Shown in pieces: positions 10,341 to 37,206 of a stretch of 64,000 bases of DNA. The notes beneath the pieces are model-generated. The model did no database searches. It saw only the letters and a list, made by a program, of their open reading frames with translations, and was not told where the DNA came from. Origin of the DNA: Maricaulis sp. (GTDB lineage: Bacteria; Pseudomonadota; Alphaproteobacteria; Caulobacterales; Maricaulaceae); the NCBI RefSeq assembly GCF_017643475.1, contig NZ_JAEPNI010000001.1:806001-870000 (forward strand). Reading direction: 5' to 3'. How positions within the stretch are numbered: position 1 is the first letter of the stretch; the number at the start of each line of letters is the position of its first letter. Both the position numbers and the translations under genes were made by a program.

Positions 10341-10516
10341 CGGGCAGGAGTCATTTTGACCGTCTGTATCATCGTGAAGATCAGTGATTGGTCCGGCCGG
10401 AAAATACAGCTCTCGCCCTTGACGGATCAGCAATAAATTCCCTAATTGCGCGCAAATATTCAAAGGTGGCGCTGCACCTGTTTCGTCAAACCGGAATTCG
10501 GTGCGAAAAAATTGCG

Positions 10517-10567
10517 TTATCCACAAAAAGCGCTCATTTATCCACAGAACCCGCTTTCTTATCCACG
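10517..10567 (+). promoter_or_regulatory. Cluster of three DnaA boxes at 21-bp intervals
   Basis: ttatccaca at 10517-10525, ttatccaca at 10538-10546 and ttatccacg at 10559-10567 lie in one orientation with starts exactly 21 bp apart, i.e. on the same face of the helix two turns apart. Two are perfect matches to TTATCCACA. An AT-richer stretch (10425-10465) precedes them, and a GC-rich structured region follows. This could be a DnaA-controlled promoter, a DnaA titration site or part of an origin. No classical origin neighbours (dnaA, hemE, parAB, gidA) are in the window, so I do not call it oriC. Confidence 0.7.
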
Positions 10568-10586
10568 CAACCCACAAGCCGTCGCG

Positions 10587-10616
10587 TTGACCGGCCGGGC
10601 TCTCCCGACCTAACGT
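10587..10616 (+). promoter_or_regulatory. Weak promoter candidate for the structured RNA region
   Basis: TTGACC at 10587-10592, an 18-bp spacer and TAACGT at 10611-10616 sit 20 bp after the last DnaA box. The -10 match is poor, so this is only a pointer to where a transcript could start. Confidence 0.25.
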
Positions 10617-10619
10617 TTG

Positions 10620-11312
10620 ATTGTCGACGGGGCGGAAAGCCAACCCTGCAAGGGGAAATCGGACCAAGCCGACGGCGGATCGAAAGCCGGAGCACGAACG
10701 TGAAGCGGCCTGAAGATCCGGGCCGGGACCCTCGGGAAACGGACCAGCGGCAAGGTCGAGAGATCAGGCCGGTCGGTGAGGAAACCGCGTAAGCGGGGAC
10801 GCAGCCGGCGAAGATCCGGACCTTTCGGGGAAAGGATCAGATCCGGGGTCAGACCCGGCTTGGCCAAGGGCGGAAACACGTGAGTGGGACAGCCGGAGGC
10901 ACCGGTTCCACCCCTTCGGGAGCGGAACCAGCGGTGAGGTCGAAAGATCAGGCCGGTCGGGGAAAGATCCGCGCAAGCGGGGACAGAGCCGGCGAAGATC
11001 CAGATCCCCTGGGAGATGGGTCAGGTGCGGGGTAAAACCCGGATCAGTCGAAGGCGGAAACACGCAAGTGGGGAAGCTGGAGGCAGCGGTGTCGGACCAT
11101 CAGGGACGATATCGTGGGTTCGGGGTCAAAGCCGGACCCGGTGAGGCGGCCTCTCCCTTCGGGGAGGACCGTCCTGACCAAACCTCCTACCCAGGAGGAC
11201 GCTCCCGGGCTGACCCGCCTGGAGCACGTGCAAGGAAGGCGCGACTATAGCGCGACGACCAAGCAACGCGGCCGCCCGCCTCTTGAACCCTCCGGGGAAC
11301 AAGGACGGGCGG
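10620..11312 (+). ncRNA. Candidate structured noncoding RNA with internal tandem repeat
   Basis: This GC-rich stretch has no convincing protein frame but many hairpins capped by stable tetraloops when read on the plus strand: CCGC-GTAA-GCGG (10785-10796), CAC-GTGA-GTG (10877-10886), CCGC-GCAA-GCGG (10969-10980), CAC-GCAA-GTG (11061-11070), CTCCC-TTCG-GGGAG (11153-11166) and a ccct-gcaa-gggg at 10644-10655. On the minus strand these loops would not be GNRA or UUCG, which gives the direction. A larger hairpin at 11272-11312 (ccgcccg ... cgggcgg) could mark the 3' end. Ends and transcription are inferred. It does not match the conserved cores I know for RNase P RNA, tmRNA, SRP RNA or 6S RNA. Confidence 0.45.
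10741..11108 (+). repeat. Two-copy 184-bp imperfect tandem repeat
   Basis: Landmarks recur with a constant 184-bp offset: agatcaggccggtcgg (10761 and 10945), ccgcGNAAgcgg (10785 and 10969), ccggcgaagatcc (10805 and 10989), ggcggaaacac (10869 and 11053). Copies differ at many positions but keep length and hairpins. Since 184 is not a multiple of 3, a protein repeat in one frame is excluded, which favours an RNA- or DNA-level function. A third, more diverged partial copy may precede it (10630-10740). Confidence 0.8.
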
Positions 11313-11423
11313 TTGGTGTTTGTGGCGCCATCACAATCGGGAGAGTTACGCCAGCTTAAGTGGCCAGCCTTGATTTGCGCGCTATTCTCGTTCGGCCTGT
11401 TGGTGAGCGCGATGGAGTGAGTG

Positions 11424-25844: not shown

Positions 25845-27365
25845 ATGGTTAAATCTGCGCTTTTGGCCGCTGCGGCGACTATCGGGCTGAGCGCATCTGC
25901 CCTCGCGGAAACCCCGCAAGGCGCGGCCGATCAGCTTCGTGACTTCCTCAATCGTTTCGAAAATCTTGGACCGGGTTATGCGACTGTCGTCGTCACGGCT
26001 GACGATGTTCTGCTGAACCATGTTTCCGGCGAGCGTCGCGCCTCCACCGGCGCACCGCTGACGGCGGACACGCCGATCTATATTGCGTCCCAGACCAAGG
26101 CCTATCTCGGTCTTGTCGCCGCTGTCCTCGACGGGCGTGGTGTGTTCTCCCTGGATGCGACCATCGGCGATGTCTGGCCGGATCTGGGTGAGGCCGGTGG
26201 TGTCGACATTCGTGGGTATACGATGAGCGATCTTCTGAGCCACCAGGTGCCGATCAATGTTGGCGTGATCAACATGATTGAAGCCTATTCCATGACGATC
26301 AATCCGGCTGACTATCCGCGCCTGATCGAGAATTTCGGCGAGGCTCGAGATGAGGGCTTCGAGTACGACAATCTCGGCTATAATATTTACGCTGCGCTGC
26401 TGGAAACGGCGACCGGCAAGAGCTGGCAGGACTGGATGGACGAGGTGCTCTTCGATCCGCTGGGCATGGACAGCACGTCTGCGCGCACCTCCGACTACAG
26501 CCTGGATGAGCTGTCCTGGAGCCATATCTGGCAGGGTGAGGAGCTTGGCTGGTACGAACAGCGGCCCAAGACCGATCACATGATGCAGTCTGCCGGTGGC
26601 CTGGTAACCTCCACCAATGACATGGCTGTCTGGCTGCAGATGCAGCTGCGTGGCGAAGGCCCGGCCGGTTCCGGCATCTCCGCCAATGCCGTCAGCACAG
26701 CCCAGCAGGGTTATGTCCAGACGGGCATGGAAGACCGCCGCAATGCCTATGAGCTGGTCTGCAGCGAGTACACACTGGGCTGGAATGTCTGTGATTTCGA
26801 GGGCTATGAAGTCCACATCCACGGCGGTGGTTATATCGGCGCCCGCACGCAGATGGCTTTCGTTCCGGAACTGGGTGTCGGCATCGCCGCCTTTGCCAAT
26901 TCCGACAACAATACCGGTTGGGTCACCAGCCGCACGATCAACATGTATCTGCAATTCCTTGTCGAACACGAGGATGCCGAGGCCTGGTCGACCCGTCGCC
27001 CGGAGATCTACTCCCAGCGTGAGGGCCGTCTGCTGGAATTCCGTCAGGGTCGTGACGCCGAGGATCGTGCCAATGAGCAATGGGGTGGATGGAGCTGGGC
27101 GCCGAGCCATGACGAGCTGCGCCAGTTCGTGGGCACCTATTCCACCGGTGAACCCTATCTGGATGTCCAGGTGGTTTACGAGAACGGGGCGCTGACGGCG
27201 ATGTGGGGCGATGCACCTTACCCGCTAACCCCGGCCCAGCAGGATCTGTTCGGTGCGCAGCCCTACGCCTTCGAGGGCCGTGAGGCTTTCAGCTTCGAGC
27301 GTGATGACAGTGGTCGCGTGGTCTCCATGACCTGGGGTGACGACACCTACGCCCGCACACAGTAA
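25845..27365 (+). CDS. Exported serine hydrolase of the beta-lactamase/PBP4* family
   Basis: 506 residues. Signal peptide MVKSALLAAAATIGLSASAL, ending ALA. The class C-like catalytic set is present: Ser82-Gln-Thr-Lys85 in IASQTKAYLG, Tyr-Asp-Asn in EYDNLGYNIYAALL, and HIHGGGYIGA as the third (KTG-equivalent) box. A C-terminal lipocalin-like domain follows (FVGTYSTGEPYLDVQVVYEN). Family members are esterases, D-aminopeptidases or peptidoglycan hydrolases. ATG 25845 has aaggaga before it; the long upstream extension of the frame is not plausible. Confidence 0.9.
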   Translation: MVKSALLAAAATIGLSASALAETPQGAADQLRDFLNRFENLGPGYATVVVTADDVLLNHVSGERRASTGAPLTADTPIYIASQTKAYLGLVAAVLDGRGVFSLDATIGDVWPDLGEAGGVDIRGYTMSDLLSHQVPINVGVINMIEAYSMTINPADYPRLIENFGEARDEGFEYDNLGYNIYAALLETATGKSWQDWMDEVLFDPLGMDSTSARTSDYSLDELSWSHIWQGEELGWYEQRPKTDHMMQSAGGLVTSTNDMAVWLQMQLRGEGPAGSGISANAVSTAQQGYVQTGMEDRRNAYELVCSEYTLGWNVCDFEGYEVHIHGGGYIGARTQMAFVPELGVGIAAFANSDNNTGWVTSRTINMYLQFLVEHEDAEAWSTRRPEIYSQREGRLLEFRQGRDAEDRANEQWGGWSWAPSHDELRQFVGTYSTGEPYLDVQVVYENGALTAMWGDAPYPLTPAQQDLFGAQPYAFEGREAFSFERDDSGRVVSMTWGDDTYARTQ

Positions 27366-31119: not shown

Positions 31120-31168
31120 GCTGACCTTGCCAAATCACCGGCGCGCGTCCATTTTCGCCAGCAATTGA

Positions 31169-31244
31169 GTTCCGAGGGGTGCCCCGCATGCGGGTGCTGA
31201 GAAAGACCCTTAGGACCGGATCCGGGTCATGCCGGCGTCGGGAC
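31169..31244 (+). promoter_or_regulatory. TPP riboswitch (THI element)
   Basis: The conserved core is present in order: ggggtgcc, gtgctgaga, acccttaggacc, ggatccgggtcatgccggcg. The closing stem P1 forms between gttccg at 31169-31174 and cgggac at 31239-31244. It lies 10 bp upstream of the helical-repeat gene at 31255 and in front of thiC. The Shine-Dalgarno-like cggagcagga directly follows P1, so TPP binding probably blocks translation initiation. Confidence 0.93.
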
Positions 31245-31254
31245 GGAGCAGGAA

Positions 31255-31803
31255 ATGAGCGACCAGACCACCGCGCACACAAAAGCCCGTTTGAGGGCAG
31301 CGATCAGCGAGTTTGACGGCAAGGCGATGAGCCTGTTGTGCGAGGCGAAAGTCCAGCTGCGTGATGCGCCCGGTTTCTGGGACGCGCTTTACGACCTTGT
31401 CGATGACGATGAACCGCTGATCCAGGCCGGCTCGACCTGGCTGGTCCAGCAGAGCCTGAAATGCGGTGACCTGATCCTGGCCGACATCGCCACCGCGATC
31501 TCGCCCCGGCTGGGCCGGCTGACCCATTGGGGCGCCGTTTTGCACATTTTGCAGGCGCTGGACGCCTATGACCGTCCGCTGCCGGAAGGACCGAAACTGG
31601 CGCGGTTTGCGCAATCCTACATCACCCACGCGCGCCCCTTTGTGCGCGCCTGGGCGGTCAATGCGCTGTGCGTGCTGGCCATCCACCATCCCGAATTCCG
31701 CGCGGCGGCTGAAACCGCACGCAATGACGCCCTCAATGACACCGCCGCCTCGGTGCGGGCCCGTGCGCGCAAGGCGCCGGGTCATGCCCCAGCCACGGCC
31801 TGA
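31255..31803 (+). CDS. HEAT-like helical-repeat protein in the thiC operon
   Basis: 182 residues, family not named. The sequence is all helical with repeat-like units (LVDDDEPLIQAGSTWLVQQS, SPRLGRLTHWGAVLHILQAL, HARPFVRAWAVNALCVLA), like HEAT or alkylation-repair folds, and there are no transmembrane or signal segments. It is the first gene behind the TPP riboswitch and ends 15 bp before thiC, so it is expressed when thiamine is short. Its role could be in thiamine synthesis or in handling the radical-SAM enzyme ThiC; that is inference from position only. Confidence 0.85.
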   Translation: MSDQTTAHTKARLRAAISEFDGKAMSLLCEAKVQLRDAPGFWDALYDLVDDDEPLIQAGSTWLVQQSLKCGDLILADIATAISPRLGRLTHWGAVLHILQALDAYDRPLPEGPKLARFAQSYITHARPFVRAWAVNALCVLAIHHPEFRAAAETARNDALNDTAASVRARARKAPGHAPATA

Positions 31804-33681
<1,878 letters not shown>

Positions 33682-33725
33682 CTTCCGGGCGCACGTATTT
33701 CCTCAACAGCTTAAGGTTGCACGTC

Positions 33726-35672
33726 ATGACCTTTGAAATCGACCCCCTGCTTGCGAAGCAATCTCTCACTGACGAGGTTGCTCAGAATGCGATCAAGAGG
33801 GAAATCACCAACATTCTGGACTCTTATGTTGGTTGGTTTGACCCATTTGCGGAGCTGATCCAAAACGCATTGGATTCCATCGATGAGCGGATGTCTCAAG
33901 ACGGAACGAACGATGGCTTGGTTCGTGTCGTTATCGACCTCGGAGCAAATACCTTGACCGTGACCGACAATGGGACCGGACTTAGCAAAGATAAATTTGA
34001 GAAGTTCCTTGCTCCAAGCTTCTCGTTCAAATCGGGTGCTACCCGTGGACACAAAGGCGTAGGCGCAACCTACTTAGCGTACGGCTTCAACGATATTCAG
34101 GTCGCTACTCGGCATACTGAATTTGAAGCATGCGGGCGAATGATAGGTGCGAGGAACTGGCTTCTGGACCGAAGCCCATCCGGAAACCCGAAGCTCCGCA
34201 CTGACCACGATGGGGCCATAGACGATGCGTTTGGTTCGTATCAAAACGGGGTGAGCGTGACAGTTTCATTCGATAAAACAACAAAGCCGTCGAAATTGTC
34301 CTGGTTACAGGCGAAGACCGCATCCCAATGGGCCAAGATACTATCGGTCAAAACCGGTTTGGGGTGCATTCCGCAGCGCGATGACTTGAAGGCCGTTATT
34401 GTCACAAGAACCGCTGAAGGTGCCGAGACCAACGAAGAGATCAACGGCTTGTCGTACTTCTGGCCGCATCAAGCGCTACGGAAGTCGAAGAGCATTGGAG
34501 AGTTGCTCGACAAGCAAGCTAGTCTCCTAAAAAAACATGGCCCCGTATTCCAGATGCCATCGAATATGCGAAACCTGGACGCCGTGTATTTTTCGGGTGG
34601 AATTGACGAAATCGAAGCGCAAATCGAACTTCAAGATGACGAGCGCGACTTTATTAGGAGGCACAATCTCTATATGTATTCGTGTTTCGTTTATTCTGCA
34701 AAAGTTTGGGCCAAGATAAACGAAAAGATGTCTATTCGTGCCGGTCAAGCTGTATTGAGTCACGGGATACAAGTTGCGGCGAACAACATGCCGCAAGGGG
34801 AAATGTTTCAGGTCCCACTAACGAAGAACATTGGTCGCCAGCGTCAATTGCATTTCGTTTTTCACGTCGAGAACGTTCGATCCGATCTGGGACGAAAGGG
34901 CTTCCAGAAGGACATAGTCGATTTTCTTCAAACGTTCGCCGCTCGCTTTTTTCGGTCGGCTTTCCAGAAACATCAGCGTTTGATGAAGGCGGCGACTGGC
35001 ACACAGGTTGATCTAGACAGATCACAACAAGTAGATGATTGGAAAAAGGAATTTGAAGAGCACGAGCGAGGGCATCCCCTAGATTTGGTGCATGAAGCGT
35101 TCTTCCTTCCAAAGCGGCATATATCAATCACCTCGATACCCACGCGTGAACAAGACGTTATCGCGTTGTTCAATCAATTGGTGGCGGGCGGAGTTATTCG
35201 AGGCATTGAAATTATGTCCACGAACGAGCGCTTCACCTATGATGGCATGTTCCGGATTGTGTTCGGATCGAACGAAGAGCAAATGCTCTACAACGCCGAC
35301 GATAATCCACTTGGTGTAGACGATGAGAATTGGAAGCCGGAGTTCCGAAGCGGGCCAAAAATTCTTGAGTACAAATTCGATCTCGATGGACTGATTGAGG
35401 ACATCGAATCTGATGTAAAAAACACGAACGACATTGATTTGGTTGTCGTGTGGTCTGTTGGTGACGAATACCTGGCCAATTACCAAATCATCTCGTTGAT
35501 CGATGACGAAAATGTGGGCGACAGGCAGTATCACGGCGTGACGCATACCGTTCATTCTGCGGGACACGGCCAAAAAGAATTTGATTTGATAGTACTCGAG
35601 GATTTGATCGGATACCTGAATAATCCTGTTCATGAAGTAGCGCGACAACGAGCGAAATACGACGAAGTTTGA
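33726..35672 (+). CDS. GHKL (Hsp90/MORC-like) ATPase with C-terminal nuclease-like segment
   Basis: 648 residues, soluble. The Bergerat ATP site is complete: N-box Glu43-x3-Asn47 in AELIQNALDSID, G1 box Asp81-Asn-Gly-Thr-Gly85, G2 box Gly108-His-Lys-Gly-Val-Gly113. The middle part resembles an Hsp90/MutL transducer. At the C-terminus ILEYKFDLDGLIEDI holds an E-x-K (Glu548, Lys550), and DIDLVVVW follows, a pattern like PD-(D/E)xK nucleases. Prokaryotic MORC-type (paraMORC) ATPases are often fused to such nucleases and have been proposed as defence or restriction proteins. AT-richer codon use than thiC next to it suggests horizontal gain. ATG chosen at 33726. Confidence 0.8.
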   Translation: MTFEIDPLLAKQSLTDEVAQNAIKREITNILDSYVGWFDPFAELIQNALDSIDERMSQDGTNDGLVRVVIDLGANTLTVTDNGTGLSKDKFEKFLAPSFSFKSGATRGHKGVGATYLAYGFNDIQVATRHTEFEACGRMIGARNWLLDRSPSGNPKLRTDHDGAIDDAFGSYQNGVSVTVSFDKTTKPSKLSWLQAKTASQWAKILSVKTGLGCIPQRDDLKAVIVTRTAEGAETNEEINGLSYFWPHQALRKSKSIGELLDKQASLLKKHGPVFQMPSNMRNLDAVYFSGGIDEIEAQIELQDDERDFIRRHNLYMYSCFVYSAKVWAKINEKMSIRAGQAVLSHGIQVAANNMPQGEMFQVPLTKNIGRQRQLHFVFHVENVRSDLGRKGFQKDIVDFLQTFAARFFRSAFQKHQRLMKAATGTQVDLDRSQQVDDWKKEFEEHERGHPLDLVHEAFFLPKRHISITSIPTREQDVIALFNQLVAGGVIRGIEIMSTNERFTYDGMFRIVFGSNEEQMLYNADDNPLGVDDENWKPEFRSGPKILEYKFDLDGLIEDIESDVKNTNDIDLVVVWSVGDEYLANYQIISLIDDENVGDRQYHGVTHTVHSAGHGQKEFDLIVLEDLIGYLNNPVHEVARQRAKYDEV

Positions 35673-35709
35673 CCCTGCTGCACGGATCTGCAGACAAAAA
35701 ACAGGACCA

Positions 35710-35883
35710 AAAAACAGGGACACACACCATTTTCCCCGGGGCGCGTCCCACCACCCCATAAACCTCATGCCGAGACGCGGCCGTATTGAACTCTTGCGGT
35801 CAAGGGCGCGTTGCGCCGCTTCGCGGTTTCACCCTTGACCGCAAGAGTTCAATACGGCGACCTGCTGGCAAGAGATTTAAGGG
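35710..35883. mobile_element. 174-bp miniature element with conserved ends
   Basis: Left end: aaaaacagggacac (35710-35723), atgccgagac (35767-35776) and ccgtattgaa (35781-35790). Right end: ttcaatacgg (35848-35857), tgctggca (35863-35870) and ttaaggg (35877-35883). The same six blocks with nearly the same spacing bound the HNH-containing element at 36115-37206. No transposase is encoded. The aaaaacagggacac motif recalls ends of REP/Y1-transposase-linked elements, which is from memory and unverified. Confidence 0.7.
35781..35857. repeat. Perfect 26-bp inverted repeat with 25-bp loop
   Basis: The 26 bases at 35781-35806 (starting ccgtattgaactcttgcg) are exactly reverse-complementary to 35832-35857. 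The loop is 35807-35831. It is the core of the miniature element and would form a strong hairpin or cruciform. Confidence 0.95.
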
Positions 35884-35984
35884 ACGTCTCAGGTTTCATG
35901 AAGCAATTCGGAAAGCTTCCATCCTTTGTCGGCTCCCTGATAGCGTCGCTAGGCGAGAAAACTGACGACCGGGCGGAGAATTGA
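35884..35984 (+). pseudogene. C-terminal fragment of an unidentified gene
   Basis: From the right end of the miniature element an open frame runs into a TGA ending at 35984, reading ...DVSGFMKQFGKLPSF then VGSLIASLGEKTDDRAEN. It ends 1 bp before the GTG of the next fragment, as in an operon. The upstream part of the gene is missing, presumably replaced by the element. No family recognised. Confidence 0.45.
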
Positions 35985-35985
35985 A

Positions 35986-36114
35986 GTGGGCGTCACCATC
36001 CATTTTGAAGGCCGGTTGAAATCCGAACGCCATCTGCTTGCGCTTGTCGATCACGTCGAGCGCGTCGCGTCGGGGCGGGGTTGGCGCGCCGCCCGCATCG
36101 ATCGGGAGCAGTGG
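35986..36114 (+). pseudogene. N-terminal fragment of a conserved small protein
   Basis: GTG at 35986 starts VGVTIHFEGRLKSERHLL then ALVDHVERVASGRGWRAARI, which resembles the start of a family of bacterial proteins opening with M-x-VTIHFEGRL. After about 43 codons the frame enters the aaaaacagggacac terminus of the HNH element and stops at 36135. So this gene was cut by the element and is not functional. Confidence 0.6.
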
Positions 36115-37206
36115 AAAAACAGGGACACTTACTAATTATTCGTCTCCCCAAGCCTCTCTTATAAATTCGATGCCGAGACCCCGCCGTATTGAAGCCCCCT
36201 GCGCGGAGGTATCTGGGGTAGGCGTGAGCCGGCTTCGCAGGGCTCAATCCATCCTGTCATTGTTGATGATATTCAGGAGCTCATCGCGCATCTGAAGGCT
36301 GTTAGCGCCGAAGTGGGCTTCTTTGTGATCATTCGGGCAAATTGCGATAACATTGGTGATGTCGTCGGGGCCGCCCTCCGAGAGTGGAATGATGTGGTGG
36401 GTTTCGAGATAGCGTCGTCCATTCGGCATTTTGAAGCCTGGAGCACCGCACTTCCGGCATGCCCCATCGGCGAGCTCTAAAGCGCGCATGCGAACAGCCC
36501 GATCTCTCTTGAACGCATAGACAGTGTTCTCGTACTTCTCTGGAGGGCCGGAGTTTGGAGGCAGATCGAATTGATCCAGATACTCGCCCTTAGCGTCCCC
36601 TCTAACAACCGTATGTTGCCCTGTCGCGAAGTCATATGAGGCGATGCGCCAAACCTCCGGGTCCAATCCACGACGTTTCGGCTTCGAGGCTGAGGCGTTG
36701 GGATCCCGACTGGCTCTCATCTCTCCATCCAGAAAAATCACCCGAACCGGAAGTTGTTGCCTCGCCGCGCGGCTGACTATCCGGTCTAATCTTTCGGCTC
36801 GTTTGCCCCAGTCAGCCGCACGACTATTGGCTTGCCAGAACGCAGCGTCGGCGCGAAAATTGTTTGACTGGGACACGATATCGCCGCGGATGTCGGTGTT
36901 CTGCACCCATAAGTTCAGAACGGCCATTTCTCCGGGAATCTCATATCCCCATTCGTAACAGTACTTGGGGTTCGCTGCTGCCCAACGTGGTCCGCGACTG
37001 TAGTTTCCCCAGTCAGATGTATCGAAGCCCAAATCGATTAGAAGGGACATCGTTGTTGGCTTGTTCGACGGTCGCAAATCTTGAAGAGTCGTCATGCGTT
37101 GCTCAAAAATTGTGTGGACCTAAACTTGTAGTGAGTATTGCGCGCGCCTTAAACCCCTAGGGGAGCGGGAATTCAATACGGCCCGTGCTGGCACGAAGTT
37201 TAAGGG
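36115..37206. mobile_element. 1.1-kb element with HNH endonuclease cargo
   Basis: Left end blocks aaaaacagggacac (36115-36128), atgccgagac (36170-36179) and ccgtattgaa (36184-36193); right end ttcaatacgg (37172-37181), tgctggca (37186-37193) and ttaaggg (37200-37206). Block spacing matches the 174-bp element upstream within 1-2 bp at both ends. Between the ends lies one gene, an HNH endonuclease on the minus strand. It interrupts the gene fragment at 35986. No transposase is present, so it would need a helper or move through its endonuclease. Confidence 0.6.
36244..37095 (-). CDS. HNH endonuclease (McrA-like C-terminus)
   Basis: 283 residues. The C-terminal HNH domain is ACRKCGAPGF then LETHHIIPLSEGGPDDITNV then ICPNDHKEAHFG (residues ~210-265): His-His, Asn and His of the beta-beta-alpha metal fold, with Cys pairs for zinc. 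The N-terminal ~200 residues contain WGNYSRGPRWAAANPKYCYE and ENTVYAFKRDRAVRMRALEL and probably recognise DNA or modified bases. It resembles McrA-type restriction nucleases. It is the only gene between the element ends at 36115 and 37206, near a GHKL ATPase, so either defence or element mobility is possible. Confidence 0.85.
   Translation of the reverse strand: MTTLQDLRPSNKPTTMSLLIDLGFDTSDWGNYSRGPRWAAANPKYCYEWGYEIPGEMAVLNLWVQNTDIRGDIVSQSNNFRADAAFWQANSRAADWGKRAERLDRIVSRAARQQLPVRVIFLDGEMRASRDPNASASKPKRRGLDPEVWRIASYDFATGQHTVVRGDAKGEYLDQFDLPPNSGPPEKYENTVYAFKRDRAVRMRALELADGACRKCGAPGFKMPNGRRYLETHHIIPLSEGGPDDITNVIAICPNDHKEAHFGANSLQMRDELLNIINNDRMD

Follow-up and report, generated by a model that had tools for sequence, protein, structure and literature searches.

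A long structured RNA gene predicted in Maricaulis, with a conserved promoter and a variable number of modules

Introduction

CsrA is the best known protein partner of sponge-type RNAs, and the hairpins of CsrB and RsmZ carry a CsrA-type GGA loop. ToxI is the repeat RNA of type III toxin-antitoxin systems, the toxin being a ToxN-type endoribonuclease. CcnA of Caulobacter crescentus is reported to be a cell-cycle noncoding RNA of 182 nt that lies in the replication origin and pairs with the ctrA and gcrA mRNAs (PMC8959179). Likewise, ROOL, GOLLD and OLE are described as large ornate RNAs (PMC12286853). Here, we analyzed 64,000 nt of Maricaulis sp. (contig NZ_JAEPNI010000001.1, positions 806,001 to 870,000; henceforth "the window") and report a structured RNA that evolves fast, seems not to have been described before and belongs to marine bacteria of the Maricaulis type; its predicted gene occupies ~700 nt of the plus strand. 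In those parts of the literature open to our search, we found no description of this RNA, nor of any DnaA-driven RNA.

Set beside CcnA by description, the Maricaulis RNA is similar in being a putative noncoding RNA with DnaA-type sites and, in some relatives, a CtrA-type site, in bacteria related to Caulobacter, and in having a proposed role in cell-cycle control. In contrast to CcnA, the window-type RNAs are ~236 to 850 nt long among relatives (more than a threefold spread), their boxes lie upstream of the promoter, and the gene is ~0.6 Mb from dnaA in the genome G009 (genomes and loci are cited by our G and L numbers). The RNA shares with CsrB and RsmZ the repeated hairpins, the recurring motifs and the variable number of sites, and possibly the working mode, but its loops are of the GNRA type instead of the CsrA-type GGA. 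It is large, rich in hairpins and obscure in function like ROOL, GOLLD and OLE, but finds no match in Rfam or in phage and viral collections, and its length is far from constant. Tandem structured repeats are also found in ToxI. Nevertheless, the repeat units here are 87-184 nt. Directly downstream on the plus strand lies a gene for a PD40 beta-propeller repeat protein, followed by that of an S-adenosylmethionine (SAM) methyltransferase, where a type III toxin-antitoxin system would have a ToxN-type endoribonuclease.

Results and discussion

A predicted structured RNA gene around the 184-bp repeat

An earlier note on the window, made from its letters, proposed a new plus-strand structured RNA on the basis of a 184-bp tandem repeat with GNRA- and UUCG-capped hairpins. 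The repeat and all of the hairpins were recovered, and the stems are kept in both copies. The repeat is the centre of a larger conserved unit (~10620-11325, with a promoter region from 10517). The full gene, its three-box promoter, the length variation driven by modules and the distribution in the family are additions to the earlier note. The following features (all on the plus strand) constitute the gene:

10620-11325, plus strand: structured RNA gene, ~700 nt, with ends inferred from conservation
10741-10924, plus strand: 184-nt repeat, copy 1 (offset comparison and Tandem Repeats Finder, TRF)
10925-11108, plus strand: 184-nt repeat, copy 2 (offset comparison and TRF)
10785-10796, plus strand: GNRA hairpin CCGC-GTAA-GCGG, copy 1 (located in the sequence)
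10969-10980, plus strand: GNRA hairpin CCGC-GCAA-GCGG, copy 2 (located in the sequence)
10877-10886, plus strand: GNRA hairpin CAC-GTGA-GTG, copy 1 (located in the sequence)
11061-11070, plus strand: GNRA hairpin CAC-GCAA-GTG, copy 2 (located in the sequence)
11150-11167, plus strand: UUCG-capped hairpin, CTCCC-TTCG-GGGAG at 11153-11166 (located in the sequence)
11251-11324, plus strand: conserved 3' hairpin CCGCCCGCC...GGACGGGCGGTTGG, model R1 (covariance model and alignment), a probable terminator or 3' domain

Transcription very probably runs from ~10620, near the TCATCGACAG start, to ~11325. The two repeat copies align without a gap and agree at 137 of 184 positions, and the offset of 184 gave 73% identity over 10730-11110, as opposed to 21-36% for all other offsets between 170 and 199. 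TRF independently reported a period of 184 with 1.9 copies, 78% matches and 1% indels at 10743-11090. When the copies were compared on a consensus fold of 48 pairs, which was derived from the very four copies (of the window and G002) scored on it, 38 pairs were unchanged, two doubly changed, seven changed on one side with pairing kept and one broken. The window RNA contains five hairpins with a GNRA cap and a stem of at least 4 bp against 0.7 expected, a number reached by none of 200 dinucleotide shuffles, and the folding z-score was -4.0 for the plus strand and -2.6 for the minus strand (20 shuffles each).

Searches against Rfam release 15, which the earlier note had suggested, left the window without a match at the gathering score except for a riboswitch outside the RNA, and five plus three further related loci as well as the false-positive locus of G294 (see below) had none. 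At E values up to 10, the region yielded four matches, all far below gathering. RNase P RNA and signal recognition particle (SRP) RNA had no Rfam match in the RNA region, and no tRNA or tmRNA was called by ARAGORN in the window or 11 related loci. We also rejected 6S RNA: the sole RF00013 match in G000 lies ~258 kb away (C7:1075241-1075399; E 1.4e-6, 40.2 bits, below the 46.4-bit cut-off), and 19 of 21 genomes have such a match, above the cut-off in 13. The earlier note, too, had seen no likeness to RNase P RNA, tmRNA, SRP RNA or 6S RNA.

A protein-coding repeat was rejected as well, in line with the earlier note, since 184 is not divisible by 3 and no Pfam match was found for the open reading frame (ORF) that overlaps the 5' part of the RNA (10388-10792); the argument from length applies to the window only, as 87 is divisible. 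The stop-to-stop frames of the 29 RNAs identified in this study gave 201 cross-lineage matches at E < 0.01. Among the best 12 of these, two different frames of the window RNA pair with the same relatives, which points to the 3' hairpin conserved at the DNA level rather than to a protein.

Pairing constraint in the homologues

The covariation check proposed in the earlier note was performed on three alignments, with structures derived from the same alignments, which favours them, and with shuffles that ignore kinship. Among 12 typical Maricaulis RNAs (alignment A1, in which G017 lacks a long stretch), 21 of 80 pairs were doubly changed, a count reached by none of 500 shuffles; 95.5% of the cells pair, and sliding the partners gave at most seven doubly changed pairs. 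The 3' hairpin alignment of 17 sequences (A4) contained eight doubly changed pairs among 21 (reached by 1 of 500 shuffles), and that of ten module units (A5) contained 12 among 26 (0 of 500). The alignment A6, in which the G002 coordinates are ~15 nt off, was left out of the pair counts. Between the window and G002, 193 of 208 consensus pairs were unchanged, four doubly changed, 11 changed on one side with pairing kept and none broken, on a consensus structure drawn from the same sequences. The RNA body changes fast but under pairing constraint.

GNRA-capped hairpins amounted to 94 against 10.8 expected over the 29 RNAs, which are related and non-independent. In six of them the count was not above chance (P > 0.1), and the RNA of G167 has no such hairpin. 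All 5-, 6- and 7-mers were screened, uncorrected for the number tested; of the 6-mers that occur in six or more of the eight lineages, GGAAAC (12.75, with 2.31 expected) and GTCAAA (6.58, with 1.05 expected) were leading.

The length, the GNRA loops, the repeated modules and the strong pairing would suit a large folded RNA assembling into a complex of its own, either a homo-oligomer or a ribonucleoprotein, through GNRA docking contacts in the manner of ROOL, GOLLD and OLE. Nevertheless, the architecture is not kept among relatives, the length varies more than threefold, and no Rfam family reached the gathering score. We regard this explanation as decidedly unlikely.

Promoter and DnaA-box-like sites

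The sites upstream of the RNA are as follows. We take the boxes to be TTATCCACA for DnaA, TTAA-N7-TTAA for CtrA and GANTC for CcrM.

10517-10525, plus strand: DnaA-box-like site TTATCCACA, distal (exact match; 21-bp array)
10538-10546, plus strand: DnaA-box-like site TTATCCACA, middle (exact match; 21 bp from its neighbours)
10559-10567, plus strand: DnaA-box-like site TTATCCACG, proximal, 19 nt before the -35 element (motif match)
10587-10592, plus strand: -35 element TTGACC, inferred (alignment and table of related promoters)
10610-10616, plus strand: -10-like element CTAACG/TAACGT, inferred and poor (promoter table; not called by the consensus scan)

The predicted promoter is the most striking part of the RNA gene, conserved and rigid in its geometry. 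In a scan that allowed gaps of 18-20 nt and imposed a 17-nt spacing to the -10 element, all of the 29 RNAs had a TCCAC box before a -35 element starting with TTG, the gap being 19 nt in 28 RNAs and 18 nt in that of G217. The -10-like sequence reads TTTACT, TCTACT or TTAACT in many relatives. Three boxes spaced by 21 and 21 bp were found in 14 RNAs (those of the window, G002 and 12 typical Maricaulis). The strict three-box array occurred once each in eight of 61 genomes, always at the RNA by coordinates, and the promoter pattern of the relatives, with up to three mismatches, had ten matches in seven of 398 genomes. Nine of these matches coincide with RNAs, and the remaining one is at the end of a contig in G149, a genome with two RNAs. 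The reversed control gave none in either search. TTAA-N7-TTAA spans the spacer and the -10 element without a mismatch in four of the 29 RNAs and with one mismatch in five.

The box-like sites thus keep a constant position with respect to the core promoter, as they would in a DnaA-regulated promoter. We consider it probable that an activator binds the TTATCCAC sites and works at a constant distance, ~60 bp upstream of the start. The most likely candidate is DnaA, which is named from the motif only and which we favour by a narrow measure. A predicted DnaA motif upstream of gcrA has been reported in Maricaulis maris (PMC2877005). Activation by DnaA would make the RNA output follow replication initiation, and in some relatives, but not in the window, the CtrA-type box over the -10 element would add repression.

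Non-origin clusters of DnaA-binding sites are known from datA and DARS, and the DNA rather than the RNA could matter here if the cluster titrated or reset DnaA with the transcript as a by-product. The three boxes at 21-bp intervals, the genome-unique strict array and the distance from dnaA in G009 are consistent with such a role. On the other hand, 14 of the 15 RNAs lacking the array have a single box within the 130 bases examined, all but one keep the 19-nt gap, and the covariation points to selection at the RNA level; we consequently hold this explanation to be very improbable. The locus was also rejected as a replication origin, as the G009 contig starts with the dnaA reading frame and the RNA is at 611 kb. 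The first frames of that contig read as dnaA, dnaN, recF and gyrB. GC skew was positive in 10 of 10 stretches sampled between 157 kb and 1.41 Mb and weak beyond 1.41 Mb, with six of nine stretches negative, and the window has no change of skew sign near 10.5 kb.

Module duplication

In some lineages, the RNA grows, as judged from its sequence, by tandem duplication of modules, with 184-nt units in the window and 87-nt units in G006 and G008. TRF reported a unit of 87-88 nt in the latter two (3.3 and 4.5 copies, respectively), and splitting by pattern gave four full units in G006, five in G008 and one in G004. The ten units fold into three hairpins. We built a model of the 87-nt unit (R2) only from these three genomes and searched 24 loci (135 kb) at E <= 1, which recovered the ten training units and 12 further rows: three elsewhere in the same RNAs, eight in RNAs of other lineages (seven distinct, as L052 and L110 hold identical DNA) and one outside. 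The matches in the window RNA were as follows:

11045-11137, plus strand: best R2 match in the 64-kb window (22 bits, E 0.0021)
10778-10860, plus strand: weak R2 match (11.4 bits)

A common module across the lineages is likely on this moderate evidence. In G373 and G009, the RNAs gave no tandem array with TRF, and the modules there are seen by eye only.

As a separate observation, 36-38 nt of the RNA at 11005-11042 resemble dispersed places at 87-90% identity, four in G015 and one each in G014 and G005. A module may have arisen from a repeat resembling repetitive extragenic palindromic (REP) elements, or may have given rise to one.

Distribution and conservation

By combining an R1 covariance search of 398 genomes of the order with inspection, we detected the RNA in 17 of the 19 Maricaulis genomes (one strong match per genome) and in nine genomes outside Maricaulis that represent three genera (four of g5, four of g8 and one of g13). 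Altogether, 29 RNAs were identified in 26 genomes, all of Maricaulaceae; this count leaves out G306, G327 and weaker R1 rows, some of which are in the same family, and distant members may be missed. In a DNA search of 61 genomes, a near full-length copy was found only in G002, and most of the genus shared the 3' end. Upstream of this end, the layout of TCCAC boxes, promoter, structured body and 3' hairpin recurs in the relatives. The 3' hairpin pattern had 24 places, among them Maricaulis, Oceanicaulis and a Maricaulaceae isolate. We dropped the places in Magnetovibrio, Thermobaculum, Hydrogenophilales and an unnamed bacterium after reading by eye, and seven actinobacterial ones (Streptomyces, Microlunatus, Arthrobacter and Nonomuraea) on names alone.

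The R1 matches of G092, G095 and G332 were discarded, as by eye they resembled coding DNA or an ordinary terminator. Those of G227 and G311 were not counted, as they lack the promoter and read differently. These two genomes (L109 and L108) share an intergenic element that is pyrimidine-rich and ends in a similar hairpin, possibly another RNA. Three g5 genomes (L110, L111 and L112) possess a second RNA ~1-2 kb from the first, with three similar domains in G373 and one each in G149 and G022 by eye, and G149 has a third promoter match at the contig end.

Between the window and G002, the RNA is 91% and the promoter 93% identical, compared with 86% for the DUF998 gene, 77% for the methyltransferase gene and 76% for the PD40 gene over 509 of its 852 bases; the 95 bases downstream of the RNA gave no alignment. 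The locus could in principle be a decayed mobile or REP-type palindromic repeat devoid of function, as might be read from the resemblance of 11005-11042 to dispersed repeats in G005, G014 and G015 and from the palindromic inserts seen by eye in the flanking interval of several relatives. Such decay hardly accords with a single strong match per Maricaulis genome, the conserved promoter and 3' hairpin, the compensatory changes, and an RNA identity above those of three of the four neighbouring genes, and we give it next to no credence. The earlier note named a match to a known repeat family as a ground for abandoning its claim, and the plasmid, phage and viral collections yielded no match of any kind. 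Together with the covarying pairs and the lack of an Rfam match, this result supports the claim that the plus strand encodes a new structured RNA.

Proposed role of the RNA

Our working proposal, to which we assign a little less than an even chance, is a dedicated long structured RNA gene, present once per Maricaulis genome, that serves replication-linked control and is bound by a protein at several sites. The repeated modules would provide several equivalent binding sites, through which the RNA would sequester or scaffold an RNA-binding protein. The equivalence of the modules, their varying number and the absence, by eye, of a conserved unpaired seed fit a multivalent protein-binding RNA best. 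We tentatively suggest that the putative RNA works in this manner rather than via one base-pairing seed. In its most specific form, an off-origin RNA switched by DnaA would be a replication-timed sponge, of which the three-hairpin modules sequester the protein and the capacity is tuned among lineages by gain and loss of modules; this full version is unlikely.

The RNA might instead act as CcnA does, by base pairing of exposed loops with cell-cycle mRNAs, the modules being spare copies or stabilising structure, and the CtrA-type box over the -10 element in some relatives would be in keeping with this. However, sequence conservation between lineages is confined, by eye, to the promoter and the 3' hairpin, and there is no unpaired stretch common across the genera, which a shared seed would need. 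We therefore view base pairing as a doubtful alternative, albeit one worth retaining.

Multiple results count against the proposed protein-binding, replication-linked RNA. The predicted RNA gene is well supported by conservation, and its function is putative. In the window region, a consensus scan found neither a sigma-70 promoter nor a U-tract terminator, and neither a CtrA box nor a GANTC site is present in the 130 bases examined. Both the window and the typical Maricaulis fail to match the promoter pattern of the relatives. The proximal site reads TTGTCCACG in the 12 typical Maricaulis, and exact TTATCCACA occurs eight times, unclustered, in G009 against 13 in the reversed control. Extra pair types did not exceed the shuffles (171 of 500 in A1, 441 of 500 in A5 and 324 of 500 in A4). 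R2 also matched two places of the window outside the RNA (13.5 bits at 26650-26731, and 11.1 bits). When R2 was run over the whole order at E 0.001 and with stricter filters, it missed the window RNA and recovered only the three training genomes and one place in G294, which lies antisense to a long open frame and was taken as false. G003 and G010 had no match to R1 in the 398-genome search, and the interval between fadB and the methyltransferase gene in G010 contains no RNA, so that the RNA is dispensable. Two neighbours are more similar to G002 than the RNA is, namely fadB (97%) and the fadB-DUF998 spacer (95%). Finally, CsrA was found in none of the 21 genomes searched (13 Maricaulis and eight others of the order), with the control positive in E. 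coli, B. subtilis and T. maritima; a sponge of the CsrB/RsmZ kind was rejected on this basis.

The RNA may connect regulation by RNA with the cell cycle. As a family with no match in Rfam release 15, it combines a rigid promoter geometry with a body enlarged in some lineages by duplication of whole modules, and the lineages differing in module number would be a natural dose series for the function of the repeat. If the boxes bind DnaA, replication initiation would have a direct output into RNA-based control in the relatives of Caulobacter.

Surroundings of the RNA gene and other features of the window

By eye, long palindromic inserts lie upstream of the RNA in L029, L030, L034 and L038, and a transposase-like gene lies upstream of it in G009 (L008 and L030), which suggests that the interval collects insertions. 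In G006 and G008 (L103 and L104), the RNA comes after a methyltransferase-like gene instead of before it, again by eye.

Elsewhere in the window, the thiamine pyrophosphate (TPP) riboswitch mentioned above (RF00059, 67.8 bits) is at 31165-31260 on the plus strand, upstream of a plus-strand ORF at 31819-33681. The stretch at ~33700-36500 has a G+C content of ~0.50, as against ~0.6 in most of the window, and contains a 52-nt imperfect inverted repeat (35755-35806 and 35832-35883); it is a possible acquired island.
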